Below are positions 35,640 to 64,000 of a stretch of 64,000 nt of DNA, piece by piece (within the stretch, counting starts at the first letter, position 1; every line of letters begins with the position of its first letter). Source of the stretch: Karstenula rhodostoma CBS 690.94 (Eukaryota > Ascomycota > Dothideomycetes > Pleosporales > Didymosphaeriaceae); assembly GCA_010093485.1 (NCBI GenBank), contig MU001504.1, positions 152,985 through 216,984 on the forward strand. The letters are read 5' to 3'. The position numbers and the translations under genes were made by a program. The notes under the pieces are model-generated. The model made no database searches, was not told the DNA's origin, and worked only from the letters and a program-made list of their open reading frames with translations.

Positions 35640-37990
35640 TTTGCGGGTACTCTTAGCACATCGCACCTCCCCATAAAATCAACATCGAATCTTTTTAGTC
35701 ACCACTCTCCAGCCAGAACATCGCGGTTAGCCTCTTGCTTTTTTTGAACACTCAAAGTGCAGACAAGTGTGAGAAACTCCCCATCTCCTTCGCATCACAG
35801 TTGGTCTTCCCGCATGTGAGTTGTATAGCCTGTGATCTAGCACATCTCCACACCCCACCATCAAAAGATTGGGTGCAGATTTGTCGTCCACCGCACCACC
35901 TGCCCATCCATCACCTTGCTCCAGGGCGAATTTTAATCCCAGCGCACTCCCCCTCCATGCGTGCTGTTGCGTTTCTTTTTAGTCGCTACCCCCCAGGCAG
36001 CACATAGATTGAGATCCCGTAGACTTTTAGTCACCTAAGAGGGAGACACTTGTGAAGAACCAGCCCCTCTCCCCGCGCGGTATCCTCACCATCCCATCTT
36101 CTGCAGCCCTCCGCGCTGCGACGTGCAAGACGCTCACACGTCAGCTGCGTGGTTTTGAGACCGCAAGCGCACCACCCAACGATATCGTTCTTATCCGTTT
36201 TCAGTTCCCACGCACCGCACCCCCATCAAGCTTCTCTAGGGTAGGTTTTGCTCCTAGCATACATTCACCCCTCCCCACGTCACCCACCACATTGGCTTTT
36301 AGTCCCCGACAGCCGCATAGCACATTATATAGTTCTCAAAAGGTTTTCATACGCACAACAAAGGCGTGTAAGCACCCTCCATGACGAGTTTGGCACCGCG
36401 TTTGCGCGTGTGCGATGGGGCAGCGTCGAATCATTTCCAGGTTGGTTTAGTCCTCCCACCAGACGCAGTCCCACGCGTCCAGGATTCGCCCATCAAATCT
36501 ACCCATGCGCGCTTTTACTCCGCACAACACCCCCTCCCTCTCCGCATGAGGACGTTCTTGCCCTTGTTAGGTCCCGATCGTCCCGCCGCAACACACCGTA
36601 AGACTTGTTGTTCGGGATTCCAATCCCTGTTTTAAATGCACTTCGTGTGCGATTGCGAGATGTGGGGTTTAGTCCTGCTGCTGCTCCCACACACCATAAA
36701 CTTATCTTTGGTCGTTTTGAATCCTCCGCTTCCACTTCCATCAGGCGGAGATGGGTGTGTTTTTGTCGCCTCGTCATGCGCTCCTCATGTTTTCTCTTTC
36801 CCTTAACTTTGCATCTCCACCTCTTCCCCTCCATGTACTTCTTCGACCATCGGTTTTAGTCCCCTCCCTTCCCATGAGAATCTCTAGTTGTGCTTGTAGT
36901 CCCCACCTCCCTTCCACACTCCTATCGATTTCTCGGCACAGGGTTTTTAGTCCCCCCCTCCCACCTCTCCCATGTAGCTCTCTAGTAGAGCTTTTAGTCC
37001 TTCTACGACCAGCCAGTACACAGCACATGCATCTGTTCCATTGGGGTTTTAGTCGCCTCCTGCTACTCCCCCACAGCTAGACACCTAGACAGCACATTGC
37101 GGTCATCCAACTCTTTTTTGTCACTCGAGGAGCAGAAGAAGTGTGACACTCCCCACCTCCCCTCCCCTCCACACTCCCATCAGTTCCCACTGACAAACGT
37201 CTTTAGTCCCCTCCCATGAAAATCTTCAGTGGTGCTTTTAGTCCCATAGCGAGGTAGCCAGCAAGCACACAGCACATACATCTGCTCCATAGGTGTTTTA
37301 TTCCCCCACAAACAACCAACCAGCCAGCCAGCCAGCCAGCCACCCATCCCGCACATACATTTGTTCCATGGGCGATTTAGTCCGTCGCCCGTCGCCCGCA
37401 GTGCGGGAGAAGTAAAGAAAAACAGAAGAGGACAGTACAGGTCATGTCATATACACCTCTCCATCGCCTCCCCTCTATCAACTTCTTGAAACGGCCTTTT
37501 TAGTCCCCATGGACTTCTCCAACCGCACTGTCTAGTCCGCACTTCCTCCCCTCCCATACAGGCCTTCGGTGATGATTTCAGTACCCCGCACACACCCTCT
37601 GCTCTATTGGCGTTTTAGTCCCCGCCTCCTTCCCTCGCCACGCTTCCATTGCTATCTTGGCATGAGGTTTTTGCTCTTCCCTTCCCTTCCCTTCGATTTT
37701 CCGAAATGCCCTTTTTATTCCCTGCCTCCCACCCATAATTCCTTACTCCTCAAATTTCAACTCCCCTCCTGCCCTCCATGAATTTCTTGGCCGTCGTTTT
37801 GAGTCCCCGCCTCCCACTTCCCCTTCCATCAACTCCCATTAACAGATGTTTTTAGTCCCCACAACCAACCTGCACATAGCATTTGTTCTAGTGGTGTTTT
37901 AGTCCCCCATCCGTCCCCCACACCTCACTCGTGGTGCAGAAGTGTGAAGAAACAGTCCGAGGGGGTTATATACCCCTCTCCATCCCATCT
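35640..37990 (-). repeat. TATA/GACTAAAA cassette array A (minus orientation)
   Basis: Non-coding, pyrimidine-rich on the plus strand. At least 18 copies of TTTAGTC (octamer GACTAAAA on the minus strand) occur, for example at 35692, 35978, 36026, 36297, 36854, 36945, 36990, 37046, 37237, 37498, 37611, 37849 and 37897, usually as (T)TTTTAGTCCCC. Minus-strand TATA boxes stand at 37973 (GTATATAACC) and 37454 (GTATATGACATG). The first octamer follows each by 69 and 72 bp. Between octamers are CATG-containing spacers of about 40-60 bp (for example CATGGGAGGGGACTAAAG). Lower coordinates are more degenerate. There is no coding potential. A CCAG tetranucleotide run lies at 37319-37343. Confidence 0.8.
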
Positions 37991-43499: not shown

Positions 43500-44450
43500 G
43501 AGCGAGCGAGGCGAGGCGGGGCGAGCCGCGGACAGGCGAGATGCGGGTGGGTTGGGGATTAGATAGCGACGACCAAGGAGAGTAATGGAAGAACGCACGC
43601 ACGTACGCACACACACATTCGTCCCGTGCAGTGCGGTGCGGTGCGGTGCAGTGGAGAAGACACAATTCCCCATCCTCTCGTCTTGTCTTGCTGTGACCTG
43701 TGCCATACCACACACTCTAATCGCCCATCCCATCCCATCAACTAGCCATTTTTTTCCCGTGACGTGACGTGACATGACATGACACCCTCCCTCGGTACGG
43801 TTCGGCCCGGCGAGTGGTAGTCGGATTTTCGGACCCCAAGCCCGGGCGTAGGATCGCATCCCTTGTCTTGTCCTGTCTTGTCCTGTCCTGTGCCGCGGCA
43901 CGAACGTACCCCAGACCAGGGTCCGACATCCCTGTCCTGTCCTGTACTGGGGTGGGCGTGGGGTTTTTCCGTCCCGTGTGCAGGGGGCGTTAGCGAGGTG
44001 AGATGAGATGCGGGTTCGCTCGCCGGGTATGAGGTATGAGTAGGCGGGAAGGTGGGGGGTTGTGGGTATGGAAATGGACCCTTTTTCCCGTATACCACAC
44101 CGACAGCAGCTGAAAGCTAATCCTACTCGTTGTCCTTATCCTTATCCTTATCCTTTTTTTTTTTTTTTTTTTTTCCTGATGGGAGGTGTGGCGTGTTGCG
44201 CGGAAGGGAGGGTCTCGTCTTGTCTCGTCTTGGATGTATCTACGAGTGGGTGATGGTGAGGCTGTGGGACGAGAGTGGCGCTGTGGTGTTATGAGGCATG
44301 AGTAAGCGTTATTCTTGTGGTGTGGTGTGGTGTGGAGGGAGGTGGGCAGGGAGGGAGGGAGGGAGGGACGGATGGATAGAGGGACAGAGGGACAGATGGA
44401 CGGAGGGATTTAAATCAGTAGGTCTACTATCTACACTATACGGAAGGGGG
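43500..44450. repeat. Low-complexity intergenic region with microsatellites
   Basis: Short tandem repeats follow one another: GTGAC/CATGA units (43759-43784), CTTGTCCTGT units (43861-43892), CCTTAT units followed by a 21-base T run (44133-44174), GTGTG units (44318-44335) and GGGA units (44347-44368). No gene was recognised. It leads directly into cassette array B. Confidence 0.8.
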
Positions 44451-44459
44451 AGGTAAGGC

Positions 44460-45990
44460 AGGGGTCTAAAATAGAAATTCAAAGATAACATATAAGAGTA
44501 TAGGGGGAGGTGGCTAAAGAATGGATGAGATGGGCATAATATGTAGGTAGGCGGTGTCTAAAACATGCGGGGAATCAAGATGATATGTTGCTGTGGGACT
44601 GGCGCTGCGAGATATCACTAACCGTTACTGTGGGGTGGTGATGACGATAGGGTATATATATACTTTATGGATCTGTCTGCGCGCTACACTACGGCGTGAT
44701 GGGGGAGGTGGTAGGTCTAAAATACAAGACAAGAAGAGATATATGGGAAGAGTGGGAAGGCGGTGTCCAAAAAACATAGAGAAGAAGACGTCATGTGCGT
44801 GGGTGGTGTCTGAAGAAATATGCTGGAAAAGACGATGTGTCGCTGTGGGACTGTCGCGCTGCGGAACATGACCGTCACCATTGTGGGTTAGTGATGCCGG
44901 CAGGGAGGGGTATATATACTCGGTGGGGTTGTCTGCTACGTGTTCACTACACTCGCTATTAGGGTAGCGGTGGTGTCTAAAACCGAGTTCCAGGATGACC
45001 TATGGGAAGGGTGAGGGCGGTGTCTAAAACCAATGCCCAAACACGTATGTGGTGGCCTCCTGCCTATGCGCGGGAAGGGTACAGGTTACTATGCTATGGG
45101 ATGACTGTGGCGCTGCGGAACATCACCAACTATCACCGTTGTGGTATGGTGATGACAGGGAGAGCTGTGGTATATATACTCCGTGAGCAGATCTACGTCT
45201 CTTACTCACTGCAATGTACAGGAGGTGATGGGTCTAAAATGCAAAACCAAAAGTACGTATGTGGGAGGGTGGGGGAGCGGTGTCTAAAAAATAGAAGAAG
45301 TAACGGAGATGTGTCGCTGCGTGCGAAACATCACCAACCGTCATCGCTGTGGGGTGGTGATGACGGAGGGAGGGGTATATACACTCAGTAGATCTGTTCG
45401 ATAGGTGCTCACTGCACTACACCGTAGGGGGTGGGAATGGCGTCTAAAAATGAAACTGCGGCCAGATATGTGGGAAGCGTGGGGAGTGGTGTCTAAAAAG
45501 GACAAGACACGTATGTGGTTTCCTGCGCGCGGGAAGGGTATGGTTTACTGTGCTGTGCTGGCGCTGTGAAACATCACCAACCATTACCGTTGTGGTATCA
45601 TGATGACAGGGAGAGGCTGCGGTATATATACTCGGTAGATATCTATTGGGTATTCACTACACTATACCGTGAGGAAGGGAGATGATGGGTCTAAAAACGG
45701 AATACAGAGATTTCATGTGGAGGGTGGGAGTGCGGTGTCTAAAACCGATGACAAGACACGTATGTGGTGGTGTCCTGTGCGTGGGGAGGGTATGGGTTAC
45801 TATGCTATGCTGGCGCTGTGAAACATCACCAACCATCACCATTGCGGGGTGGTGATGACGGCAGGGAGGGGTACATATATATACTCGTTGGATCTGCCTG
45901 CTTTATCCACTACACTACCCTGTACGGGAGGTGATAAGTCTAAAGATTGAACATACAGAGTTGTATGGGAGTGCGGTGTCTAAAAGATAA
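44460..45990 (+). repeat. TATA/GTCTAAAA cassette array B (six clear units)
   Basis: Tandem units of about 205-260 bp. TATA boxes (GTATATATA, GTATATACAC, GTACATATATATAC) start at 44652, 44910, 45170, 45375, 45622 and 45871. The first octamer GTCTAAAA follows at 44715, 44975, 45232, 45442, 45689 and 45938 (GTCTAAAG), that is 63, 65, 62, 67, 67 and 67 bp later. A second follows at 44764 (GTCCAAAA), 45022, 45282, 45491, 45737 and 45978. About 13-16 bp before most TATA boxes is a hairpin CATCACCA...TGGTGATG (for example 45121-45154, 45329-45362, 45825-45857), preceded by TGGCGCTG(T/C)G. Two lone octamers (44464, 44555) mark a decayed left edge. Nothing is encoded. Confidence 0.85.
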
Positions 45991-46930
45991 ACGAAAAGAC
46001 GAAAATATTACTGCGTCGAAAGACGATAACAAGACACGCATGTGGTGGCCTCCCGCCTACGCGTAGAAAAACCTTGCTGTGCTGGACGGTGCTTTTCTTT
46101 CAGAGGTTGCTGAACTAGGAGGTCGGAGTCAGGCATGCATGTTTGCTGCACACTTTTTAGACTGGGCAATTCTGAAAGTGGCATGGCTTTGGTCTGGAGA
46201 GGTCAAAAGCATGATGGTGATGGAGTTAGGTGCGACATGCATCTGCGTAAAACCCATACTGGATGAAAGACATGTATGCGATGCGCAAGAAAAAGGTTTT
46301 TGTGAAGGTGATATGCTGGTTTAACTGTCTTCACTCTCTTGCGGCTTCTCCACACCACCATCTCAAGAAAGCCGCAATTCTAAAAGTTGTGGAATGCAGG
46401 ATGCATGTGCCCGCTGGGGGTCCACACTAAACTCACCAAAGCCACGGGTTCATGTGCTCAGCCTGTAAAACCGGTCTATCCTATCCGCATGTGGAGAAAG
46501 GCCTTCCATCACAGAGGTATGCCACGCACTCATCTCGGCGTCAAAGAATATAAACCAAAATCCGACCTACCCCCGTCCTCACTACCAGCCCAAGGCAAGG
46601 CCACGACTAAAAACACCACTCACGACTTTTTATGTGCTTGCGTCGAAAACACACCACATGATGTGAATATGCGGGTTCTGTGCCGCACTCGCGTTCAAGA
46701 CTTTTCCTATCAAGCTCGCATGGTAACTCCTGCGTAACCTTGATACTTTTTCAGCAGATGCCTGTTGTACACCACCGGGGAAGGCACAGTACTAAAAGAC
46801 GCGCGGAAAGTACGACATGTGGACGGCGTTGGTCAGCATCTAGTCTAAACCAGAAAAAGCAGCAGGAATGTCGATTTTCCGGGGTGCCTGGCTGGGAGAG
46901 CGGGGTCTAGAAAATCTCTTGCATGTTGGT
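45991..46930. repeat. Degenerate right flank of array B
   Basis: Scattered octamer derivatives (GACTAAAA near 46605, TACTAAAA near 46792, GTCTAAAC near 46843, GTCTAGAAAA near 46906) without TATA boxes at the right distance. An 81-codon frame at 46079 has no support. Probably older, decayed units. Confidence 0.5.
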
Positions 46931-47374
46931 TGGGTATGTGTCTGCCAACCTGTTCAATTTGTAAATAGATAGTATAGCGGCTGCGTAAGAAACGGAAGGA
47001 GGAGTAATGGCGCTTATAAGCTATTAGGCTTATGTTCGGAGGCTCGGGGGCTGGGTGGAATTTCAGTGGGTGGTGTTTCTTTCTTAGCACACTGCTCGCT
47101 AAAACTGACGAAGAACGTCTGAATGTGGGGGTCTATGATATGCGGGGAGAAGCAAAAGCCCATTAGATATCGCATTATGTCGACGTCTGCAGCGCCAGGC
47201 CGAAATCTATCATGCACGTGCACATGCGTGGGGGACGAGAAACCGCAGTGTCCAGCAAATGGGTATATTCAACCACTCTCCACAGCAAGCTACATATCGT
47301 ACTTTTCCCTTCCCTCCCCTTCCCTTCCTCGCACCCTTCGATCCAGACGCCCAAACGCCCTCCTTCTATCTCCA

Positions 47375-50300
47375 CTACTGCCCCCCTTCCAGCACCCCAC
47401 TCTCCCGCAACTGCCTAAACAGCTCCGGCTCCAAAAACTTGCTAATCGTCACATCCTCCGCAAGGCCCTTGCGTCTCCGCGTCTTCAGCACAAAATCGCG
47501 CGCCGTCGCCTGCGCGGATGCCGGCTCCAGCGGCCGCAGCTGCGCGTCTTTGTCGAGCGGGTCGCCGGGGACGATGGACCAGCGGTCGAAGACGAGCGAA
47601 AGGGAGACTTGGCCTTGGGTGTGGATCTAGTTCTCGTTAGTATGTTGGTTTCAACTGGGTAGAAGGGAAACAGAGGGGAAGACTTACGCGCAGATCCGTC
47701 TCGAAGCCGAAGGAATCGATGACGGGGATCAGCCCGCGCACGCTGTACAGCGGCGTCCCTGCGATCGGGCCGTCCTGCAGGACGTGGCCTCTCCGCCGCG
47801 CGAGGACGGTGTACAGGCTGGACTTGGTGTCCGCGGGGCCGACCATGCTGCAGCTGTACACGGGCTCCATGAGCCGCGGGCTCGCCATGAGAAAGCTGGA
47901 GTAGCACGCGCGGCGGGCGGTCGGGATGATCTGGCCGCCGCCGCGGAAGATGGCTTCGGGCGCGAGCTCGACGTCGGTGATGCGGAACTTTGTGTTGCGG
48001 ATGGGCTCTTCGCAGAGGGGGCCTTCGCGGGTGGCCCAGCTGAAGCCCTGGCGGATGGTGTCGCGGACGGAACGGAGTGTCTTGGTGTCTACTTCGGAGG
48101 GGAGGGTGTCGTTTTGGAGGATGTTGGCGCCCATGTCGTCGGGGCCAAAGGCCCAGATGTTTCGGGAGGCGAGGAGGTCGTAGCCGTAGTGATCTTCGAA
48201 GAACTTGCCGACGACTCGGACGGGGTCTTTGATGGAGACTTTACCGGCTTCGATGTCCTCTGCGATGCCTGGGTCGAGCTGCTCTGCCACCATGGTGATC
48301 TTGTTCTTCTTGTTGGGAGTGAGGGCGTAGCATTTTATGGCGGACATCTCGACGACGGTCTCGCAGAAACGAGTCACCGGGTCGGACACCTTGATCTCCA
48401 TATCCGCGTACAACCTCCGCAGGTCATGAAGCACGCAGTCCATGTACAGTTCGCCAGTGCCGAGGATGACGTGTTCGCCGGATTCCTCGACCTTGGTGGT
48501 GATCAGTGGGTAAGACTTGTTGATTTTGCGGAGACCGTCAAGCATCTTGGGGAGTTCGGAGGGGTTGATGGGTTCGACGGCGACTTTGAAGACGGATTCG
48601 AAGAAGTGGCGGATCGGGCGGAAGATGTAGGCGTCTTCATCATCTGGCAGTTTTTGCGAGACCAGGGTGGCAGTCTTGACTATTGAGTTGTCGACGCCAC
48701 CTAGGAGCACCCAGTTACCCGCGGGCACGCCGCTCGTGGGAACGTTGTATCTCGACTCGGCAATCCAAGTGTCAGTGATGGTGGCGACCACCATGTCTTC
48801 CTCGTCTTCGATGGTATATGCTTCTCCGAGTACTCGCACGGAGGTGGCCGTTGTAGCTGTGCCGCTCATAACTCGTCCTAGGGCGTGGAACGACTTTGCA
48901 TCTGAGGTGTTGTACAGTTTGGAGACGTGAATGACCAGCGGGCCATTCTGGTTGCACTTCTCCATAGCTTGTGCTGTTTTGGAATCCAAGGGGCCTGTGT
49001 AATGTCTCTCGAGCATTCTCTTGGCGCCCTCTGCCGGTGAAGGAACGTGCTGTGTGATCATGTCTACGAAACCAGTCGAAGGACCGAAATACTGCTGGCA
49101 TACCAGCCGCATCAGTTCTTTCGCGTCCGTCTTGTACTCGGATGGCTTCAACCGGATGCCCAGCTGGTCCAGCGTGTCTTTCAGATCGTCCGCGCTCTCG
49201 CTAAGGGTATGTGCGTAGAGCTTGTAGATAGGTTCTAATATCCAGTGTACGAACGAGCGCTTCGAGTCCTCCTCTTGTGCCTTGCGGCTGAATTTGCGAC
49301 TTCCTGGGTTGTAGAAAATGTCTCCCCACAGGCGCACTGCAAACTTCTCCACATCGAGGTTCTTCATCGGCTTGCCAAATCCAGGCGCTTTCGCGGGTCC
49401 AGGGTAGAATTCGGCGTACATCTTGGCAAACGACTGCAGTGTGAAGCACCATCGCATGCTGGAGCAAGCGAAAGCGACGTTGCCTCTTTCAGGGCTTACA
49501 CGTCGGCGCTCGCCGCGGCCGGGAATGGTGTTTTCGATGACTGTGTTGACCTCCTCGATGACGTGCTTAATCTTGAAGTATGCGTCGCGCGGTGGCAGTT
49601 TCAGCTCCAGGATGAGGCGATCCATTTTGTTGACGACCAGTGTCAGGGGCAGATCTTCCAAAACAGCATGCTTAATGGCCAGCTCGGTCGTCACCTGCAC
49701 GCCTTCCACCACGTCTACAACCAGCACCACACCATCCACTAGCCGCATTGAGGCCGCCACCTCGTCCGCAAAGTTGACGTGTCCCGGGGTGTCTATGATG
49801 TTGAACAGATGCGACTTCATCGACGTGTTCTGGAGCACCAGTGTCATAGGCGCGGCCTTGATGGACAGTCCGCGCTCGCGCTCGACCACGTGCACGTCGG
49901 TGTAGCGCAGCTGCTCCTCGCGCTTCTTCCCCCTCTTGGAATCCAGGCGATCCTGGATGTCGTGTGTCTCCATAACCAGCATGTCCATGAAAGCCGTCTT
50001 TCCGTGATGCAGGTGGCCCGCAATGGCGATGTTTCGTATTTGATCCGGGTAGTTCATCAGGTCCGTCATGAGTTCGCGTGAGTAGTGTACCGGCGGCAGG
50101 TCCTCCTCTTGCACTGTGAACTTCTTCTGCACCACAGGCGCAACGATGGGCTGCGACAGCGCCTGCGTATCCTCCTCTTGGACCAGGACTTCGACATCGG
50201 CGCCGTACACGTCGGATGCGGAGGGGTAGTACTGCTTGTCTTCGTGCAGTATGACGGCGTTTGAGGGCCCCTCGTCCATCTCCATCAGCTGCTGGTCATG

Positions 50301-50478
50301 CGCCCCCTCTTCCTCGGCCTCGTCGTCGAGCACGTAGGCGTCTGCCGCCTCGCCGGTGGACTGCACATCGTCGTCGGACTCGGCTTCGCCGATGAAGTTG
50401 CCGAACCTGTAGCAATTAGGATCACGGGATGACGCACAGCACTCGAGCGCGCACTCACTCGTCGTATAGGTCGTCCAT
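47375..50478 (-). CDS. SNU114: U5 snRNP GTPase Snu114 / EFTUD2
   Basis: EF-2-like GTPase of the U5 snRNP that controls Brr2-driven spliceosome activation and disassembly. Exons 50478-50459, 50406-47688 and 47626-47375 close in phase (996 aa, normal for the family). The acidic N-terminal segment (MDDLYDEFGNFIGEAESDDD) is typical. G1 is GHLHHGKT (137-144), G3 DTPGH, G4 NKMD. EF-2-like domains II-V follow to RGLIPVIDSFGFETDLR, and the last exon ends ...FVLKTRRRKGLAEDVTISKFLEP. The first exon is only 20 nt, a conserved kind of micro-exon problem for gene finders. Head-to-head with ERG10. Confidence 0.97.
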
Positions 50479-50808
50479 GGCTGCAGAGGTGAATGGCGCA
50501 GTCTGCGCGCGCGAAGCTTGCATGAGCTACCCAAAAGTTCGAGGTCTTGGCGCGATCGACTCGGCAGCGGTGAAACGTGCCGCCGAGCAGGGATGTACCC
50601 GCTAAACTAGCGGTCAACAATGCGAAGGATGCGCCCAATCGGAGAGCCGAAATCGGGGCGAATGCTCAGGGCAAGGAACCACCCCACTCGGGCTTTTCCT
50701 AACGTGGACGCCACGACGACCGACTGCTAGACGATTAAAGTCGCTGCCCCTCGTGTGCTTTCTGCTCAATTCACCCCTTTGTCTCTCCCGTGTTCTAGAT
50801 ACCCCAAG
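50479..50808. promoter_or_regulatory. Shared divergent promoter of SNU114 and ERG10
   Basis: 330 bp separate the two start codons, so both promoters must overlap here. The ERG10 side is pyrimidine-rich (TCACCCCTTTGTCTCTCCC, near 50771). No canonical TATA box is visible on either side. That two housekeeping genes share this region is seen in the layout; co-regulation is inference. Confidence 0.6.
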
Positions 50809-52238
<1,430 letters not shown>

Positions 52239-52399
52239 AGGAGAGGATAAAATACCCTAATTTGTGATGGATTGCATGTGCATATGATAGATGACAATGG
52301 ATGGCTATAGCCTGTCTTGGATGATGACTGACGCCTTTGCTGTGTGTCGTATGGGGAGGTGCTGTGATACAGGGAATTAGTCATAGTGTTACCCTGGGG

Positions 52400-54440
52400 T
52401 TGTGGAGGTGGTCTGTATCATCACCACCCCACGCTGCAGATGCCAGCACCCTGCTCTAGAACGGTATAAATACCGCCCCAATCCCCCTTCAACTTCTTCA
52501 CATAACTGTTCGGGATCTTTGCGGGCTTGACTAAAACCATTTCAAGAGCATGCCATGTCTGGCTTAGGAGACTAAAAACGCTTTTATCAGGCGACATGTG
52601 TGCTTCGGCGCTGGCAAACCAAAAACGATAATTCTTCCGCCATATGCGTGGTTTATAAATATAGCGAGGCTCTGGTGATGTTGAAGGCGTCCCACAGAAT
52701 TGATGTGTGCTGTCAGGCTGTCGTGATAATAATCATCATCAATCGCTGTGGAGACGTTAATCTAGGGAGGGGTATATATACCGCCTCAATCTCCGTTCAA
52801 CCTCCTTACACTACTCCTGAGGATCTGAACGATCTTGCCTAAAAGCATTGGAGAGATGGAGCATGTCCTGGTGTGGGAGATTAAATTTGGAACAACGCGG
52901 TCTTATGTCTGGTCTGCGGCTGGGCTGGGTGACTAAAACTAAAACATCTTGCACCTCTGGTCATGTTATGTACTGTATACTATACATTTAACAGAAAACG
53001 CTGCGTGCTCTTAGGTTTTCGTGATAATAATCATCATCAATCACTGTAGAGACGTTAACCTAGGGAGGGGTGGGGTGTATATATACCGCCTTGATCCCCC
53101 TTTAACTTCCTCACAACTCCTAGGGATCTTGACTAAAAATAACGAGCTACAAGCCCATGTCCGGGGGTAGGAGACTAAAAATAAGTGACGCGACATTCTG
53201 ATGTTTGGGCTGGGGATGGGCTGGGCGACCAAAAAATGACATCGAGATTTCGGATGTCTGGTTGGGAATGTGGATGGGAGACGAAAAGCAGAAGTACATG
53301 GTGACCTGTGCGGTCTACAAGCAGATGTGGAAGACATTGATGGCGCCAGCGCCGTGTGTTTGGAGATTGGCGTGATGATGATGATGATCAGTACTACTCT
53401 GCTGTGGATATTGTTAAGCTGCTCGGGAAATGTATAAAAATACCCTTGATCTCGACCCTGACTTGCACGATACTCTCAAGGACCCTTCTGGCATTGACTA
53501 AAAGTGTTAGCCCGGCTGTCTCATGGCCCGCACTGGAGGACTAAAACTCTAGGAGACCATTACCATGTGTGGTTGGGGCCGGGAGACTAAAAACTGAAGA
53601 CTTTCAGTCATATGTGTGGTCCGAAACCAGACTGTCGAGGACTACATGGCGCCGGTTCTGGGTGTCTGTGGTTGATTTTGTTTGATGTCAGGTGTTGTAG
53701 TGATGGAGGAAATCACCACAGGCGTCGGCAATGTGTGGTGGGCTGTATAGATACACCCTTGATTCCACTTCAGATTCCGCACACAATTCCTAGAGAATCG
53801 CTCCCACAATCATGACTAAAATCCGTTGAACATGGACAATATGTCCTGCGTTGGGAGACTAAAAACAGATCCATCCAGTGGCATATGTGGTCGATAAGCA
53901 ACGACGGATATCTCGAATGGCGCCAGCTCGGTATCTGAAGCTCGTAGCGTTTATTCTGGGTCTGTTGTGATGATGATCGTCATTGCAGACAATAGTTCCC
54001 CGCCGAGAAAGTGTATTTATGTCTCTGTAATTATCCTTCTGTTCTGCACACTATTCTCAAGTCTTTGGGCCTTGACTAAAATGGCTATTGCGCCGCTTTC
54101 ATGTCCCAGGCTGGGAAACCAAAGAGTTCATGATGAACTTCCTATGTGGTCTAAAATACTTGTGGAACAATATTTATGCATCCGGCTATGGATATGAGAT
54201 CACTGCTTTTTACGTTGCGTAGAGGGGTGAGATGATTATCACTGCACTCGCGGACGTCAGCGGTCTGGGCTAGATGTATAGATACCACCTCGAGTCCGTT
54301 CCTATCCAGTACGCTGCTCTCGGTTAGCCTTGACAAAAACATATGCTCAACGGTTTGATGTCCTGGGCTGAGAGGCGATAAAGAGAAAATCTGAGTTCTA
54401 TGTGTGGCGTAAAGGCAGACTTGGATGGCTTTCATGGGGC
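52400..54440 (+). repeat. TATA/GACTAAAA cassette array C (seven units)
   Basis: Begins just after the 3' end of ERG10. TATA boxes (GTATAAATAC, GTATATATAC, GTATAAAAATAC, GTATAGATAC, GTATTTAT) start at 52464, 52772, 53077, 53432, 53745, 54014 and 54276, spaced 262-355 bp. The first octamer (GACTAAAA or GCCTAAAA/GACAAAAA) starts at 52529, 52837, 53131, 53496, 53814, 54074 and 54332, that is 65, 65, 54, 64, 69, 60 and 56 bp later, usually in the context (G)GCCTTGACTAAAA. The second is about 42 bp further in CATGTCTGGGCTGGGAGACTAAAA context (52570, 53173, 53539, 53857), and a third of GTGGTCTAAAA type follows. Upstream of the TATA is a TGATNATNATCATCA palindromic cluster (52724-52743, 53021-53040, 53372-53390, 53966-53984). 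No coding potential. Confidence 0.85.
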
Positions 54441-54775
54441 TAGGAGAGGGTTAAGGTCAACTTCTTTTTTGCGGTCCTCACATTACGTTTCGAGTCGTCT
54501 ATCCGTCAGCACCTAATTTCAACTATTGCATCCCGGTCAGCTCGGTCGACGCGATGGGAGCAGTGTGTTGATAGCAATGACAAGCTAAAGTGAATAGACA
54601 ATAACTGCGTTACATTTCGCAATCCTGTCAAGCGTTGGAAACAAATCGTTCGCTAGCTGACTGGCACATCTCCCAGGACCCGGCGCCGCGTTGCCGCTGC
54701 AATGTCTACAGTGTATTGAACATGCGTTCTGTATTGCAGCCTCAACACACAGGCTGATGTATAGCCAGGCTATAT

Positions 54776-55991
54776 TCACGTTGGACCGATGTTCCGCTCT
54801 GAATATTGGAAGAATATGGTAGTTCTGAGAGTAAGCATGCCGTTCAACTTGTAACACTTGGATTGTAAAATTACAATGATTACATTAATTCGGCCACATG
54901 AGAAGAGACGCAATATTTCACATGACAATAACCTTGACCAGCCCTGAGTGTCAAGCTCTCTTGGGGAGTGTACTTCACTGGAAGGCAATTCGGAAACTAC
55001 AGGCCGGCCGTAGATCTCCTGAGTAAAACTATGGTGGGTCATGCTAGAAGTTTTGTCTTCAACTCCAGAGGTCGCCTCTGGTGCTGCTGCCTGAGGTTTG
55101 CTTGGCCTATCCTTTCTTCGACGCCGATGCAAAAAGACCGTTAGGACCAGCGCACCGATGCCGAGTACGCCAAGCGATGCACCCAGTCCGATTCCAACTT
55201 TCACTCCCGTTGACAATCCGTTGTCGGTCGAGCTATTCGAAGGTGCCGTGCCTGTCGGAGATGGACGTTCATCCGAAGGATTTGAGGTTGAGAGCCGGCC
55301 GGGACGAGAAATCGGATGAGGCAGTTGTTGAACTGGTAGAAGGATCTGCTATAGCTGTCGAGGTCGCGCGTGCAACGTTGAATCATACTACAGCGATTGC
55401 ACCAACACTGGAAGACGCAGACAACGTCGTTGTCGCCATCGACTAGTCTGTGGACTCCCCTGCACCAGTGGAGGCGTATGTCAAAACCATGCCCTTGGAT
55501 ACACTGGAGAGACAGTCGCCGTTTACGGAGCGGCTTGTTGCATGCAGGTTCGAGTAACCTCTGTGAATCGGAGTCAGCCTGGTAGAGGATTCAGAGAGTT
55601 CAATAGCTTACGAGGGACAACACATGATCTGTGTCGTAGTACTGTCTTTAATGAAGGTTGCGACAGTCGTCCACAGATATGGACATGTCAGAGGCTGTAT
55701 GCTTAAGGCAGTATGTTCACTGCCTCCAACGCCTAGGCGCGCTTGTTCCCACCACGTAGTCACAGCAGAAGGTACACACTTGACTGCTGGGTCGATATCA
55801 AGCCCGTAGCCCGGATCGAACGCAACCAGGCTAGATCCATTGAGGCGAAAAGCAGACTCGCACCCTGATGACGGTGTGAAGACGGCCGTGAGAGGGATCC
55901 AGGAAGTTACATCGTCGCCATTTGTTTCTGCCGTGACAGACATGATGGGGAAGTTTGAAGCAAAGCGTTGTGGAGATAATGCAACGTGGGA
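54776..55991 (-). pseudogene. Decayed single-pass membrane protein (extracellular domain, Ser/Thr stalk, TM)
   Basis: The first part (55991-55608) encodes SPQRFASNFPIMSVTAETNGDD and ...CVPSAVTTWWEQ...CPYLWTTVATF...TTTQIMCCPS, a layout common in fungal surface proteins. An intron (GTAAGC...CTACCAG) continues it in phase to SSVSKGMVLTYASTGAGES. Then a TAG and, 20 codons on, a TGA interrupt the Ser/Thr-rich stalk. A one-base frame change follows before STSNPSDERPSPTG. The last part (to 54776) is intact: STGVKVGIGLGASLGVLGIGALVLTVFLHRRRRK, a TM helix with a basic stop-transfer, then a cytosolic tail. Both nonsense codons fit C-to-T changes (CAG to TAG, CGA to TGA). A complex intron structure is the alternative. 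Confidence 0.55.
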
Positions 55992-56273
55992 CTGTACAAG
56001 TGAGTTGATTGATGGTAAGACACCTCATCAAAGAAGAACGGGGAGTAACGCAACGAGGATACGGGGGACCAAGGCTTTGCCTCTCCGCCCCTATGCACAA
56101 AGCCTGGCATGCGCACCCGCGTGGCACAGTGATCCATGTACCAGAAATGAGTGGCTGCAAGCCGCGTGCAGGGATATCACATTTAAGCGCTGACCATGCT
56201 AATCACAACACTTGGCACCGTTATAAGACAGGTTCCCTTCTCAACATAATCCACTTTGTCCTACATCCACAAC

Positions 56274-58176
<1,903 letters not shown>

Positions 58177-59719
58177 ATTAGCTGTCATCTTTCGTTCTTC
58201 ATCAACTTTGGCAAGAATGGAACAAACACTGATAAGCACATGCCATGCGGCGCAAGATCGAGAAAGATGCATGGCTCTCTATTTTATGTCATGTTATGCT
58301 TACTATAGCGAACAAAAATGTATCAGAAGAAAACACATCGACAAGACACTTGATCGAGCTGCTACCATTTAGTTACCAGATACTGCCAATCCACGTGTTA
58401 TCAATACCGGCACCGACCGAATTCTCCGAAAAGTGCATGAGCTGCGTCAATGAGTTTACACTGCTTATATATGGCTGAGCGGACGGGAAGCCTAGTTCTC
58501 TCTTGCCCATTCGCCACCAAGACCGCTAAAAGGACTGTGTTTAGTAGTCTGTCTACAGCTTAATACACCCCGTAGATCGTTGATTCACTACACAGTATTC
58601 TCAGACATTACTGTTATTCCCGGACCCTGGCTACTGCACGCTTAACGCTATGTCACGCACATAGGCGCTTAGATCAAGCCGCTATTGGTGTCTGCCTGTT
58701 CGAACAGGGGAGCGGCCTATTACGGAACTGTTGGGTCTAGGACTCAGGATAGCGAGTGAGCGCGAGGCAGGCATAATGAGGGCGGGCTGCGCGACCATTA
58801 GATCGGCGGCTTGCTAAACTTGGGCTAACGCCACATCACCAAGCGCTTAGGTTAAGCCACTATTGGTTCTACAGGGTGTTTAGCCCCGGCTCGCACGGGG
58901 CCGTCGTCCTTAGAGTACCGTATATTTTGAGCAAGTAAGCAGCTTTCGGTGGGTAGACCAATTGGACAGTAGCTACGGTACACCTTCACTGGCACCCTAG
59001 GAGCGGCCCCGTGCGACCTGAGGTGGAAACACCCTGTATCCAGGCTGTAGATACAGGCCAGTATTCTGAGTGAACGACACTTAGAAATACGCTTACTGAA
59101 CAAGTCTTAGTGTCTTTCAGCGGCCACGGCGGTGCATGTGGCTTAGAAAGTGGCGATCTTATGGGTCATTGCTACCATGTACCTTTCTACCTACCATCTA
59201 TACATTCTGAGACATCTACAAGGTCAAGGCGGGTGTGAGTTGGCCTTCCCCCATGCTGGCTTCCTCGGAGGTGTTCGTCGACTTCTGACGAGGCTGAAGT
59301 GGCAATTTTTAACCCGTGCTTCTCAAGCAACATGTTCTCGAAGCTTCGCTCTGGCAAGTAACCTAGGGTACATAGCACTCGTTCCTGGAAATCTGCCTTC
59401 GGTTAATTAGCTGAGAAATAAGGCGCTCTTGGCATTTTCACACGCTGTGATTCGTTTATTGAGCCATCAATTCTATCTTCTAATTGGTTGATTATACGAG
59501 GGCGGATTCGAGAATCGCGTGTGATCAAACGTGGAGTGATACTGTTGATGCGGTTCTTCAGCCTTCCGGTGAGACGATAACAGCACCATGCAGCTCGATG
59601 TTAAGCCACTAATGCGTGGGCAGGCTAAAAGCCTATATTGTCCAGCTGAAGGCACCAGTGTTCACCGAAAATCCTCGCCCGCTCTCCAAAATCGCTTCCT
59701 GTTCTCTTGCTAATCTTCT
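58177..59719. other. Repeat-bearing intergenic region
   Basis: No gene recognised. It contains an imperfect ~43-bp direct repeat, CGCTATGTCACGCACATAGG...CGCTATTGG (58648-58690) and CGCCACATCACCAAGCGC...CACTATTGG (58829-58866), and immediately after the second copy a MITE. A TTAAGCCACTAATG string near 59600 is a possible third partial copy. Confidence 0.55.
58872..59036. mobile_element. Mariner-type MITE, 165 bp
   Basis: The left end CAGGGTGTTT...TCGCACGGGGCCG and the right end CGGCCCCGTGCGA...AAACACCCTG are reverse complements over about 33 bp, with mismatches only in the middle ~9 bases. A TA dinucleotide stands on both sides (58870-58871, 59037-59038), the target duplication of Tc1/mariner transposases. 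The 165-bp element has no room for a transposase. It must have moved by a partner element elsewhere in the genome. Confidence 0.85.
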
Positions 59720-62211
59720 ATGGATCCGCTCTCAGTAGCAGCAAGTATTATAACCCTTATCGCGGCTGCTGGGTCTATTGTGCAGCATTTGGAATATGTG
59801 AAATCTCGCATGACTCCTTACGCCGAGCTCCTTGCTATCATGAACACTGTAGGCAGCACTAGATTGCTTGGTTTACTCCACCTAACAGCTATAGGTAACA
59901 GATCTACAAGCAACTTTGATCGTTGTCCGATATGAATATGAATCGCTCAGAAACAGCAGAATACCGGCTGCGAGGCTGGTCTACCAGACCCTACCTGATA
60001 CAATTAAGAGGCTCCAACAATGCTTGGATCAATTAGTCGATTTCGCACATGCGAACCTCGTGAGGAATGGAAAAGGTCTATCCCGCCTTGGACTGAGCAA
60101 AGCAAAGAGAGAACAGTTGGTCCACATTCGAGACGATATTTCAGACGCGCACCGCAACTTGCAATTGCTTCTTCACTCTGCGAATCTGTCAGTCTAATCT
60201 TCTCCGCCCCTGGTATTTACGCTCAGGATCAGTTCTAATAATTTTGAAGGCGTCGGACCCAGGAGCTGATGTCGAAGATAGAAGAAGCTGCTATTGTTCA
60301 AAACGAAAACCATAATCAGACTTCTACGGTCCTGGATGGAATAATTACTCAATTATCGGCAGTCCACGATCTTCAAGGCGAAAATTTAAAAGGCAGTCAG
60401 CATACGCAGAGTGAAATCAGATCTGTTCTGGAACAGACAACATATGACGGCGGCGATTCAACATCGACCCAGCTTCGGATAACAACGAGTATGCCTCTCA
60501 AAGCATGTGACTGGACTTGTAATTGCCAATGTCATGTTCGAAACCGATCTCAGACTCCGCAATGGCTCTCGGCAGTTGTCGGAACGCTTTTTTACTGCTC
60601 TACAAATACACCGTCGCTTGACTTCCTACCTTGTAATACTACAGCCTGCTTCAGGTCTCAATCAACGTCCTCTTATCGGTTCACATATTATTTTCCGAGT
60701 TGGATAATGCGTGCAGCTCTTGTCTATACGACTTGGAACAACGTACAAGGAGAGAACTCGTCTTGGAGTGTTAAAATGCCGAAGGAAATACCGCTTTATT
60801 CTCCCTGTTGGCATTACATCCAAGGAGGATTTGTAGAGAAGATTCGAGAGCTTCTGCAGTTGCGCCAAATGTCACCGTACGACATTGGGCCGGACGGAGT
60901 TTCTGTTCTGCATGTAAGTTGTGAGGAGAGACTGGGATCACCCATTGAAAGTAATGAGGATGTCGTACTAACACTTTTATAGTGGGCAGAGTCATTCTGG
61001 CAACTCGATATATGCTCTCTGCTAATGGCGACGGGAGCAGACTGGCATTTCAAGGATAGAGCGGGAAGGTAAGTAGCTGCTATTCCCAGCCAGGGTACGG
61101 TAAAAACTTAAAAATTATTGGCAGGTCACCATCAGACGGCGCATGGAGAAAGGTCCTGTTGAATGAAAATTCCGATGCCAGTGTGACTAGGTTGCGAGCA
61201 CTCGTTGGGTCAGAGGACTCGTATGATCTCCAGCTCGGGCCTCTGCATCGCATCATCCTGGGATTATCTAGTGCCGATTTTCAGATGCAATTGGACCTGG
61301 AGCCTTCACGAATAAACGATCTGGACTGGTTGGGATTGACCCCTCTGATGTGGGCAGCGCTTAGAGGCAATCATACTTGTCTTAATATGCTGCTCTCACA
61401 CGGCGCTCGAATCCACTTAACGGACTCAGAAGGGCGTACCGCTCTCCATCATGCCGCAAGAGTTGGCTTTTTACAATGCGTCGAGGCTCTTCTGAATGCC
61501 GGGGTCGACCCCAACATTGCCGATAAAAATGGCCTCATTCCTCTCCACGATGTCGCCTACTTCATCCCAAGCCCAGAGGTTGCAACCATAGTCACATCAC
61601 TACACGGGTATGGTGCAGACCTTGAGGCGAGGAACAAAGATGGATGGACCCCTCTGTTTATAGCCACTGACTTAGGATCACTCGAAGCTGTCGAAGCACT
61701 CGTCGAATGTGGTGCCGATGTAAATGCTCTGGATTTCAGCGATACCCCACCCATCGGTCGTGCGATTTTCCGCGGGAACGATCAAATCGTTCAACTACTC
61801 TGTCAGCGTGGAATATTGCCATCCTGGAATTCAACTGATCACGAGTTCGTGAATGTTCTCGCCGAAGCAGCGGTGTGGGGAACGGTGAAGGTTATGGACA
61901 TTCTATCGGACTCTGCTATTCCTCCGATAGAATGTAACATTACCAAACTTAAGCATTGGTTCAATACATATCGCCAAAACAGTTATTCTACATACCGCTC
62001 ACCTGAAGAGGAGCTCGCCGCCTTTCACCGTCTGCTCGATAAGAAGGCAATTCCACTGAGCCGTGCCGAGGCCGAGGAGTCGTTCGTCGCAACGAAAGAC
62101 GCATTGAACAAAGAAAACGATGATAATGACGATAGCGATGATGTCGATGTTTTCGAGGATGCTATGGAAGGTGTTTCCTTTTTTGTTGAGTCTGGTCTTC
62201 TCGCTGCTTGA
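59720..62211 (+). CDS. Ankyrin-repeat protein with fungal NLR-type N-domain
   Basis: The start MDPLSVAASIITLIAAAGSIVQHL is the classic opening of the fungal N-terminal domain found on NLR-like and ankyrin proteins. Exon 1 (59720-59848) joins exon 2 (59895 on) in phase: NTVTDLQATLIVVRYEYESLR. A helical region and a linker with DWTCNCQCH follow, then LHWAESFWQLDICSLLMATGADWHFKDRAGR (introns 60914-60982 and 61070-61124). About five ankyrin repeats come next (LTPLMWAALRGNHTCLNMLLSHGA, RTALHHAARVGFLQCVEALLNAG, WTPLFIATDLGSLEAVEALVECGA and others), then an acidic tail. No NACHT/NB-ARC module is present between the two. The splice near 60190-60275 could not be fixed: several acceptors fit, none perfectly, so a frameshift there cannot be excluded. 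Likely role: protein-protein scaffold or incompatibility/defence-type protein (inference). Confidence 0.75.
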
Positions 62212-62690
62212 CCCGTTGTAGTTGCCTCATAAACGATAGCATACGGAGGGAGGCGTTTCCCATTGAATGAGATAAGCTTGAAATCTCTACTTTGTGAGCG
62301 CGTCAGAAGACGCACCGAGGCCGATATATGGTCTCCAACAGAGGAAAGCGTCCTTGAGGTCATTCGTGGTATAGGTCTGTGAAGGTAGCGCTATCACGTG
62401 CCACGTGATGGTGGTGGTGGTAGTGGTATCAACCACCGGAGGATGGCAGCGCCCATGTTCAGGCATGGCGCAGCCTTTTTGCGGCGTGGCCGGCGGCAAG
62501 CTCTTGATCACGGGATCTTGTCTTTCGTCGTGGTGCTAACATACCTCACTTCTGACGACTGGCTACCGATTCCTATTGCCGGTTTCCGTTTACGGTCCCT
62601 CAGCAGATGGCGTCCTATGGTCGTATGTGAAAGATGGAGAGCAATCTATGGTATATATCCCCTGCTTTCATGCCCGCCCAGTATGGCATA
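62212..62690. other. Intergenic stretch leading into array D
   Basis: No gene recognised. A GTGGTGGTGGTAGTGG microsatellite lies near 62408. A GAGGTGGT/ACCACC-type symmetry precedes the first cassette. Confidence 0.35.
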
Positions 62691-64000
62691 ATGCCCGTGA
62701 TATCTATCTTCCGCGCATTGGTGCTATGCCTGGGGACGTACAGATACCACCTCTATCCAGCTCTTGAATCTTATAATTCTCGGGTCTTTGCACTTTTGAC
62801 TAAACCATATGCAATGTAGTGGGCATGTCTCGGGTTAGGAGAGGGGCCTAAAGAATGAACAAACCAAACTTCATGCGTGGTCTAAAAGCGATTTTGAAAA
62901 ATTGAATGGCTTTGGCGCTGGTTCTGAGTGTGTGAACTCCGCCTGCTGTGATGGAGGGCTGGATTATGATCATCACCATCGTTACTGCGAATATTAGCAA
63001 TATGTCTGAGGATGTATAAATACCACCTAGTTTTCATTCTGACCTTTCACGCTCTTTGCGGGGTTTCTTGGCTTTGACTAAGAACTTGGTCCTCACTATT
63101 CATGTCTGTGGTCGGGACAAAACCGAAAACTTCGAGTTTAAGAGACATGTCTAGCGGGTCAGAGACTAGCGAATGTAAAATGCATGTTGGCCTCGTCTGC
63201 TTGGGTACAGTTGGTGTATCTAGACTGGATACAAGGCGGAGGATGGAGATAGTAACGTGTATCATCGTCACCGCGCCCTGCGAGTGCTCGAAGCATGTGG
63301 GGGGAATGTATAAATACGGTCTCATTCTTCTCCTAAATCGGCACATAAAACTCCCAAGGATTTCCTTGGTCTTGAACAAAACTGGTCTAAAATCAGAGAT
63401 GATGGTGTCCTATGTCTGGCGGATTAGAAGGAAGATGACTCCTCGATGGTGAGAGTTGTCATTACCAGTACGCGGCGGATGTGGTATTCTGCCTGGGGAT
63501 ATACCAATGCGACCTCGTTTGCCTTTTACTTGTACACACCACTCCACCCATTCTGATTAAACCTCTCTACATAGCAACCTGATTCCATGGGCTCCGAGCT
63601 CGGGGCGTTGGGGACTAAAGCCAATCTCGATTCTGATCATTTCTGGCAGACTAAAACACAATGTCTCCAGCATATGACTAGTTGGCTCTCCGTATAGAGG
63701 CTCAACACCATCAACGACCTGGAGTGGGATGAGCATGGTCATCATTATTACCACCGCGTAATGCAGAGATTGGCAATCGGTTAACGGAGTGCATAAATAA
63801 TACCTCATCGATTCCATACATAGACGGCACGATGCTTTTGGGTCTCCTGGGCCTTGACTGAAAGTTGAGCGACATAAAGCTTATGTTCTGCGCTAGGTAA
63901 TGGAAGATGCCGGCTTGAATCATGGCCGGTTTCTCTGTGATCTTGACCGAAAATCGTTTGATCGCACTTCCATGTCTCTGTGGGTGCTGGGCTACTAGAA
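62691..64000 (+). repeat. TATA/GACTAAAA cassette array D (continues past window)
   Basis: At least five units. TATA-like boxes: GTACAGATAC 62738, GTATAAATAC 63014, GTATAAATAC 63308, GATATACC near 63499 and GCATAAATAATAC 63791. First octamers: GACTAAAC 62798, GACTAAGA 63076, GAACAAAA 63374, GATTAAAC near 63558 and GACTGAAA 63856, that is about 60, 62, 66, 60 and 65 bp later, in GGCTTTGACTAA / GGCCTTGACTGAA context as in array C. Later octamers occur at 62845, 62879, 63385, 63613 and about 63650. Upstream palindromes: GATTATGATCATCACC (62962), GTATCATCGTCACCGCG (63259) and GTCATCATTATTACCACCGCG (63738). Units here are more diverged than in C. Confidence 0.75.

Follow-up and report, generated by a model that had tools for sequence, protein, structure and literature searches.

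Tandem arrays of a two-box cassette with an 18/19-nucleotide spacing in Karstenula rhodostoma: candidate non-coding RNA genes

The octamer GWCTAAAA is repeated in several arrays within a 64,000-nt stretch of the Karstenula rhodostoma CBS 690.94 genome (contig MU001504.1, positions 152,985 to 216,984; hereafter the window). In these arrays, short boxes and the distances between them are kept while the sequence between them diverges, and this raises the question of what kind of element they are. An initial annotation had described them as TATA boxes followed at a set distance by octamers, with tandem short non-coding RNA genes, small-RNA source loci or regulator binding sites as candidates.

Cassettes and arrays in the window

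The window has 42 copies of GWCTAAAA against 2.32 expected (100 dinucleotide shuffles, largest count 6). The observation behind the initial annotation is confirmed, and its extent is greater than had been described. All but one of these octamers (41/42) are on the strand of their own array, the exception at 46155 being on the opposite strand. The octamer is the part of the conserved unit that had been recognized before; the unit is in fact bipartite, and a second box and a length ruler had been overlooked. In 68 of 106 clustered exact octamers, a count that alone is free of scan bias, a second box ATG(G/T) starts 18 nt (n = 31) or 19 nt (n = 37) past the octamer. Other offsets are rarer (20 nt, n = 7; 17 nt, n = 3; any other, at most 6). 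The cassette can be written GGG-G(A/T)CTAAAA – N18/19 – ATGKGG, with G/T-rich linkers and a period of about 45 bp. Across the array loci the octamer-to-octamer interval is most often 45-49 bp. As clues to what the unit is, the ATGKG box and the 18/19-nt ruler carry the most weight. Adenine makes up 9% of the linkers (G 41%, T 30%; 192 linkers) and 28% of the 18/19-nt segments.

Cassettes were scored with a two-box score (threshold at least 14) that was trained on the same loci later scored. The window contains 70 cassettes, every one of them inside four arrays and on a single strand per array. The features are as follows.

35670..37904, minus strand: array A, 27 cassettes (score at least 14), mostly GACTAAAA (cassette scan and sequence)
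37873..37904, minus strand: top-scoring cassette of the window, GACTAAAA + 19 nt + ATGTG (cassette scan)
37972: TATATAAC, upstream of array A
44464: additional earlier octamer of array B
44556..46821, plus strand: array B, 16 cassettes, mostly GTCTAAAA (cassette scan and octamer count)
44653..45885, plus strand: six TATA boxes of array B (44653, 44911, 45171, 45376, 45623, 45876)
46378-46821, plus strand: last four cassettes of array B, degenerate or set apart
52465..54284, plus strand: seven TATA-like boxes of array C (52465, 52773, 53078, 53433 and three weaker)
53746, 54013 and 54277, plus strand: the weaker TATA-like boxes of array C, TATAGATA/TATTTATG
52529..54362, plus strand: array C, 19 cassettes (cassette scan and sequence)
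53539..53569, plus strand: example cassette, GACTAAAA + 18 nt + ATGTG (cassette scan)
62798..63976, plus strand: array D, 8 cassettes inside the window (cassette scan and sequence)

Three plus-strand arrays (B-D) and one minus-strand array (A) had been described, and the scan recovered this arrangement; array A is at 35.7-37.9 kb, outside the coordinates that the initial annotation gives. Array D runs beyond the window end, with 7 further cassettes in locus L016 (C13:216985 on). The units of array B are recognizable duplicates of one another. In array C, the first cassette of a unit tends to CTTGACTAAAA..ATGTCY and the second to GGAGACTAAAA..ATGTGT. No tandem repeat was called inside the four arrays at a score of 50.

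Promoter-like sequences and genome-wide extent

TATAWA is found 90 times in the window against 20.4 expected, with TATATA scored on both strands. In the array loci, 96 cassettes have a TATAWA within 130 bp upstream, and in 77 of these the distance is 52-71 bp; boxes were looked for upstream and on the cassette strand only, and strand agreement therefore rests on the enrichment itself. TATA-to-octamer distances are close to those reported earlier for array B (62, 64, 61, 66, 66 and 62 bp; claimed 62-67), array C (64, 64, 53 and 63 bp in four of seven units; claimed 54-69) and array A (68 bp in one unit; claimed 69 and 72). Array D is looser than claimed, with one distance inside the reported range of about 60-66 bp (61 bp) and one outside it (76 bp). 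CACA-type initiator-like words peak 34-39 bp downstream of the TATA box (79 units), and the first octamer follows some 25-30 nt past the CACA-type word.

Most TATA boxes of array B are accompanied by an upstream inverted repeat like CATCACCAACC..GGTGATGA and a CACT-type initiator. The upstream palindrome that had been ascribed to all units is not general; what holds is that GTGATGA-type words are present within 120 bp of the TATA box in 30/80 units, compared to 11/80 in a stretch farther upstream. Inverted-repeat arms of 7 bp were found upstream in 13/80 units (5.1 in shuffles) and arms of 6 bp in 30 (23 in shuffles). Runs of four or more T number 33 in the predicted transcripts and 37 in shuffles, so there is no sign of the avoidance expected of Pol III genes, and Pol III units were rejected; 29/80 predicted transcripts contain such a run. 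The 72 downstream stretches examined show no 3' end signal (one contains AATAAA).

Pattern scans covered the whole genome (44.3 Mb), with the reversed pattern as a control. TATAWA-N44-66-GWCTAAAA-N18/19-ATG has 68 matches (61 distinct sites) and its reverse none, and the strict two-box pattern has 167 matches versus 13 reversed. The pattern put forward in the initial annotation, slightly widened, has 49 matches (35 + 14) versus 1 reversed, many of the 49 being AT-rich repeats or one site listed again 2 bp on. The proposed order of promoter and signal thus recurs genome-wide, with box-to-box and TATA-to-box spacing kept and the sequence between diverged. With the two-box score (at least 14), there are 472 matches versus 8 in reversed sequence in 203,633 bases, nearly all from loci picked for having arrays. 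After removal of duplicates 451 distinct cassettes remain, of which 386 have the 18/19 spacing, partly a product of the scan penalties. By extrapolation, the genome would hold several hundred cassettes, about 740. The array loci keep their cassettes on a single strand, bar one stray match each in L009 and L030.

Composition and drift of the segments

Segment identity in paralogous cassette pairs is 0.51-0.52 against a background of 0.52 (424 pairs, of which 40 were one site counted twice and were left out of the reading). In array B (15 pairs), the first segment hardly exceeds background (0.55 versus 0.52), in contrast to the conserved promoter (0.76 versus 0.57) and linker (0.73 versus 0.48). 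Related segments form a family in array A, L011 has an identical pair and 72 pairs reach an identity of 0.66 compared to 35 in one shuffle. At least some segments therefore drift by substitution, which weakens wholesale replacement of segments as an explanation.

The 3-mer odds of the segments correlate with those of coding sequence in the sense (0.81) and antisense (0.68) directions; leaders (0.23) and linkers (0.37) correlate less. Correlation of the segments with a noncoding control is 0.15 (a small control of 5,710 nt), or 0.54-0.61 with looser settings (20,767-28,529 nt, likely including some coding sequence). A second-order Markov score fails to separate coding sense from noncoding (-2.0045 versus -2.0073 and -2.0049 bits/base). 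RNA folding of 150 cassettes sampled from the 451 gave a mean z of 0.01, no more structure than in shuffles, and hairpin or miRNA-like precursors were rejected.

Proposed function, rival explanations and known systems

We give about even odds (roughly 0.5) to a reading of the arrays as tandem non-coding RNA genes, probably transcribed by Pol II, in which a protein would measure the box pairs and the segment between them would be a free payload. Among the candidates of the initial annotation, tandem short non-coding RNA genes fit best, because each array keeps to one strand, the CACA word lies at 34-39 bp and the octamer follows 25-30 nt on. The proposed model is as follows. A short unstructured RNA with 1 to 12 cassettes would start from a dedicated promoter, which consists of a TATA box, a CACA initiator some 35 bp downstream and, in a subset of units, an inverted repeat around GTGATGA/TCATCAC ahead of the TATA box. 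Each RNA cassette would consist of GGGG(A/U)CUAAAA, 18 or 19 free nucleotides and AUGKGG, set between GU-rich, A-poor linkers. A protein or processing complex would bind both boxes jointly and measure the 18/19 nt between them, which would keep the length constant and leave the sequence free to drift. The payload, presented or excised, would be the free segment. The anatomy, the spacing, the single strand per array, the genome-wide enrichment, the drift of the segments and the lack of a predicted fold are observed, whereas transcription, action at the RNA level, the measuring protein and a use for the payload are inferred. If transcribed, the arrays would add to eukaryotes a class of RNA gene not known before, one with an internal length ruler; the two-box pattern allows a direct test for the family in the genomes of related Pleosporales and in RNA-seq reads.

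On the main rival reading, which we consider unlikely, the octamer and ATGKG would be the two halves of a site in DNA, contacted by a domesticated recombinase or another DNA-binding protein across a neutral 18/19-bp spacer, and the arrays would be binding platforms that lie behind TATA promoters. A DNA-binding protein would account just as well for two conserved boxes around a neutral spacer. The spacer length is fixed within about 1 bp while its sequence is free, as the background-level identity of paralogous segments indicates, and recombination signals share this build: V(D)J signals are described as a heptamer and nonamer with a spacer that is fixed in length and poorly conserved (PMC2666730). 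However, the boxes here are GWCTAAAA and ATGKG, not CACAGTG and ACAAAAACC, the spacer is 18/19 and not 12/23, and the cassettes keep one orientation per array and are tied to TATA promoters. That single orientation, the initiator-like word before the first box and the strand-biased GU-rich linkers favour an RNA-level reading over a DNA-level one.

It is improbable, in our estimation, that the arrays are small-RNA source loci whose cassettes are cut to Argonaute guides of about 18-35 nt directed against the fungus's own transcripts, parasites or a host. In keeping with this, the segments use words much as mRNA does (by one measure), and the genome has Piwi-domain matches at 8 places (4 above 200 bits). 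Two segments were searched genome-wide at up to 3 mismatches: the first has 18 places including itself (1 at 2 mismatches, 16 at 3) versus 4 reversed, whereas the second shows no excess (6 including itself, 5 of them at 3 mismatches, versus 8 reversed), and neither has a second place at 0 or 1 mismatch. The cassettes are not predicted to form a hairpin, and 423/451 segments (at least 18 nt) show no excess of targets in 126,600 non-array bases, a sample of about 0.3% of the genome with little power. A related possibility, also unlikely, is a guide-array system of several hundred genome-encoded cassettes, in which a protein that measures the boxes would cut hypervariable mRNA-like 18/19-nt guides out of tandem Pol II transcripts. 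In design this would be a fungal analogue of CRISPR arrays or piRNA genes that evolved independently. Such a system in a fungus would follow if the segments are guides. Neutral decay of old tandem satellite or transposon-derived arrays, with the boxes as remnants, would explain the tandem units and the duplicates in array B; yet the same boxes and spacing recur in arrays without long shared similarity, and array B keeps its promoter and linker while its segment is near background. Full-length sharing was seen within an array only (array B) and not between the arrays tested (B and L030). A genome search with array B retrieved itself alone, and one with L030 retrieved itself and an unrelated inserted element (among 40 of 154 candidates scored); this search misses short matches, a joint query of 120/451 segments having failed to retrieve its own sites. 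We regard such decay as highly improbable. The coding-like word usage could also mean that the cassettes are read through as genes for short peptides or as micro-exon genes, but this is extremely improbable: segment length is 18 or 19 nt, the octamer has TAA in one frame, segment stops occur in all three frames (72/2507, 85/2286 and 78/2683), and there is no consistent GT donor at ATGKG or AG acceptor on the octamer side.

Known systems provide partial likenesses. No published description of the element was found in a search that covered few subscription journals and no bioRxiv preprints. A tRNA search returned none, and Rfam gave 0 matches at gathering score in the window, L030, L011 and L015 (best sub-threshold matches in array C, E-values: 2 and 2.2). 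The tandem pattern has 0 strict and 2 looser matches in viral contigs and 1 in prokaryote genomes. After a cassette scan and reading, none of these stands: L036 has an exact simple tandem repeat and another scan match within an open frame, the L037 match is within an open frame and L038 has two scattered scan matches. Near kin of this fungus may be missing from that collection, so absence from it says little about fungi. The design (two fixed tags holding freely varying 18/19 letters) was absent from the collections searched. No neighbouring gene common to the arrays emerged among 10 selected flanking frames: 8 have families (one HET, the others common cellular genes) and 2 do not. Box C/D snoRNA clusters are polycistronic, encoding short guide RNAs with two boxes, RUGAUGA and CUGA; the cassettes resemble them in having two boxes and in being, as predicted, polycistronic, but differ in the boxes themselves and have no Rfam match at gathering score in the stretches scanned.

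As in CRISPR arrays, repeated tags alternate with variable inserts of fixed length; unlike in CRISPR arrays, the tags are short, the linkers vary in length and the segments drift by substitution. In one report, GGGGACTAAAAC is present in Cas13a crRNA oligos (PMC6315463). A type VI-A-like stem was not apparent next to ACUAAAAC, where an exact 4-bp partner is present in 35/451 cassettes versus 27.5 in shuffles. A Cas13a-type repeat was thus rejected: the letters match, but the stem partner is not much beyond chance and the fold z is 0.01. With the Cas13a repeat ending at its usual boundary, GGGGACTAAAAC stands just before the spacer in those oligos.

The Class I RNAs of dictyostelids are 42-65 nt long in D. 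discoideum and have a terminal stem and a single 11-nt motif (PMC7919456). The cassette arrays resemble this account in comprising many lineage-restricted short non-coding RNA genes (here putative) that share a promoter element and a short conserved motif and vary in the rest (PMC7919456). They differ from it in that the cassettes are without a predicted stem, carry two boxes at a measured distance and occur several to a predicted transcript. The Class I DUSE is placed there about 60 nt upstream of the start, and the TATA box 52-71 bp before the octamer is alike in kind only.

Cassette arrays in the window

The window contains 42 matches to the octamer GWCTAAAA, compared to 2.32 expected (maximum of 6 in 100 dinucleotide shuffles), and all 42 lie within four regions.

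Array A: 35.7-37.9 kb, minus strand, octamer matches
Array B: 44.5-46.8 kb, plus strand, octamer matches
Array C: 52.5-54.4 kb, plus strand, octamer matches
Array D: 62.8 kb to the window end, plus strand, octamer matches

The three plus-strand arrays and one minus-strand array described in the initial annotation are borne out; a single octamer of the 42 (at 46155) has the strand opposite to that of its array. When 106 clustered exact octamers, drawn from the window and from eleven further loci in this genome, are aligned, a second box, ATGK, starts after the octamer at 18 nt in 31 cases and at 19 nt in 37 (7 at 20 nt, 3 at 17 nt and no more than 6 at each of the remaining offsets up to 106). 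The three places before the octamer are GGG (59-68% G at each). The module is GGG-G(A/T)CTAAAA-N18/19-ATGKGG, and its second box is the half of the motif that the initial annotation had missed. A two-box score of at least 14, trained on the loci scanned (203,633 bases), gives 472 matches in the forward sequence versus 8 in the reversed sequence. Deduplication leaves 451 cassettes, 386 of which have 18 or 19 nt between the boxes, a share partly raised by scan penalties on other lengths. Successive cassettes are most commonly spaced 45-49 bp apart. At this score the window has 70 cassettes, all within the four arrays and on a single strand in each.

The second base of the octamer is skewed differently by array (27 T to 3 A in array locus L018, 24 A to 1 T in L034), and T at this base accompanies T at -1 (47% vs. 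15%; array loci). In array C units, the first cassette flanks are mostly CTTGACTAAAA..ATGTCY and the second mostly GGAGACTAAAA..ATGTGT, as if position in the predicted transcript mattered; several array D cassettes resemble the first type. A GGAG-type simple repeat (44334-44408) is immediately upstream of array B.

Predicted transcription units and genomic distribution

A TATAWA is located 52-71 bp before the cassette in 77 of the 96 cassettes that have one within 130 bp upstream. The TATA-to-octamer distances first annotated were reproduced to 1-2 bp for the units measured, except for one array D unit at 76 bp. CACA-type words are most frequent 34-39 bp after the TATA, which is where Pol II transcription in fungi would be expected to begin. 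The upstream palindrome that had been claimed was recovered in part: a GTGATGA/TCATCAC-type word, most commonly 45-59 bp upstream, is found within 120 bp of the TATA in 30 of 80 units (11 of 80 in a stretch farther upstream). Units contain 1-12 detected cassettes, with a median predicted length of 138 nt up to the final box. Pol III transcription is unlikely because T4+ runs are about as common in the predicted transcripts as in shuffles (33 vs. 37). No 3' end signal was found downstream of the units.

In the genome (44,326,383 bases, 29 contigs), GWCTAAAA-N17-20-ATGKG occurs at 167 places, versus 13 for the reversed pattern. With TATA added in front, there are 68 matches versus 0 reversed; as TATATA runs match at two offsets, these are 61 distinct sites. 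The examined array loci contain 94 strict matches and 451 scored cassettes, from which roughly 740 cassettes are extrapolated for the whole genome ((167-13)/94 x 451), a rough figure since the loci were picked for arrays. Over the examined sequence, arrays are about 1-9 kb with 7-46 cassettes each.

The arrays sit among ordinary genes. Those of the window lie between U5 GTPase-like (EFTUD2), GH47 and ankyrin frames, and ten selected array-flanking frames outside the window include P5A-ATPase, thiolase, Sec7, DEAD/DEAH helicase, WD40, MFS, HET and ABC proteins and two without a family. A MutL-like protein of the window has 71% identity to one from Paraconiothyrium brasiliense and 66% to one from Bimuria novae-zelandiae, which places the fungus in the Pleosporales, probably in the family of these two. 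Past the window end, a HET-domain (heterokaryon incompatibility) frame (L016:3462-5366) follows the final scored cassette of array D by ~2.3 kb. A dispersed AT-rich element of ~285 bp (L030:5419-5704, contig C3) is lodged inside another array; it has 154 candidate genome places, 40 of which were scored (70-92% identity). It looks like a mobile element separate from the cassettes, SINE/MITE-like by size only.

The 18/19-nt segment

Linkers contain little A and are dominated by G and T (A 9%, G 41%, T 30%), segments are near-even (A 28, C 26, G 24, T 22%), and the switch occurs at the boxes. Folding did not exceed shuffles for single cassettes (mean z 0.01; 150 sampled of 451), nor clearly for two-cassette units (mean z -0.31; 60 of 174). 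The six units of array B are clear duplicates of one another. Their promoter (0.76) and linker (0.73) identities compare with 0.57 and 0.48 between arrays, and their first (0.55) and second (0.58) segment identities with 0.52 and 0.53 (15 pairs each). Segments change, at least in part, by drift rather than swapping: related segments form a family within array A, two segments of locus L011 are identical, and an identity of 0.66 is attained by 72 segment pairs versus 35 in one shuffle. Such drift and near-background segment identity, with promoter and linker kept, mean that segment length is held while its sequence is free or diversifying.

Segment di- and trinucleotide odds correlate with the coding sense strand of the same genome at 0.89 and 0.81 and with the antisense at 0.86 and 0.68, the coding set being small (17 frames, 29,883 nt) and the noncoding control smaller still. 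The 3-mer difference is 0.13 (bootstrap 0.06-0.20), and sense exceeds antisense in 5 of 6 locus groups. The 2-mer and 3-mer values are 0.21 and 0.23 for leaders and 0.44 and 0.37 for linkers; 19-letter stretches taken at ten other offsets in these arrays do not exceed 0.60 (3-mer). With box-derived words removed, segments score 0.79, noncoding sequence 0.50 and its reverse complement 0.63. Against the resemblance, a looser noncoding control rises to 0.54-0.61, and a Markov score including base composition did not separate coding from noncoding. TAA occurs 62 times in segments versus 128 in shuffles, and avoidance of TAA-type words for their likeness to the octamer box may be another cause of the word bias. 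The coding-like usage is a lead, as yet unexplained, to mRNA-like sequence; if real, guides or targets would fit better than a neutral spacer.

Known systems and mode of action

Rfam gave no matches at gathering score in the window and three further loci. GGGGACTAAAAC, common to the cassettes, occurs within Cas13a crRNA oligos (PMC6315463), but the stem beside it there has no counterpart in the cassettes. Dictyostelid Class I RNAs, a family of ncRNA genes specific to one lineage, come closest in kind (PMC7919456), and recombination signals in box geometry (PMC2666730), but neither fits. Three pattern matches in viral contigs and prokaryote genomes were judged to be chance. Phage-like contig L036 has a tandem repeat of GTGACTAAAATACAACACTC units among TATATA runs (reverse strand 256-400), unrelated to the fungal cassettes.

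No targets were found, in searches of little power. Matches of the 451 segments to the examined array loci, save the L011 pair, and of 423 of them to 126,600 non-array bases were shuffle-like; a combined search of the genome with 120 segments missed even their own sites and carries no information. Two single segments had no second genomic place at 0 or 1 mismatch. Allowing up to 3 mismatches gave 18 places for the first (4 reversed) and 6 for the second (8 reversed), the segment's own place counted in each case.

The proposed model, with a probability of about 0.5, is that the cassettes would work as RNA, one protein holding both boxes. Action as RNA is favoured because each array uses one strand, is linked to promoters and has strand-biased linkers; the protein is suggested by a box distance that tolerates about one nucleotide. 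The main rival, a bipartite site acting in DNA, is distinctly less probable. No fixed reading frame was found in the segments, and encoded peptides are very improbable; decay of former repeats is only slightly less so. Better placed than these, though still doubtful and somewhat behind the DNA site, is a role as source loci of Argonaute small RNAs, for which Piwi-domain matches at 8 genome places (four above 200 bits) speak. These matches amount to an Argonaute set of several genes. Two of them are adjacent on contig C1, one read through two stops, perhaps an intron.
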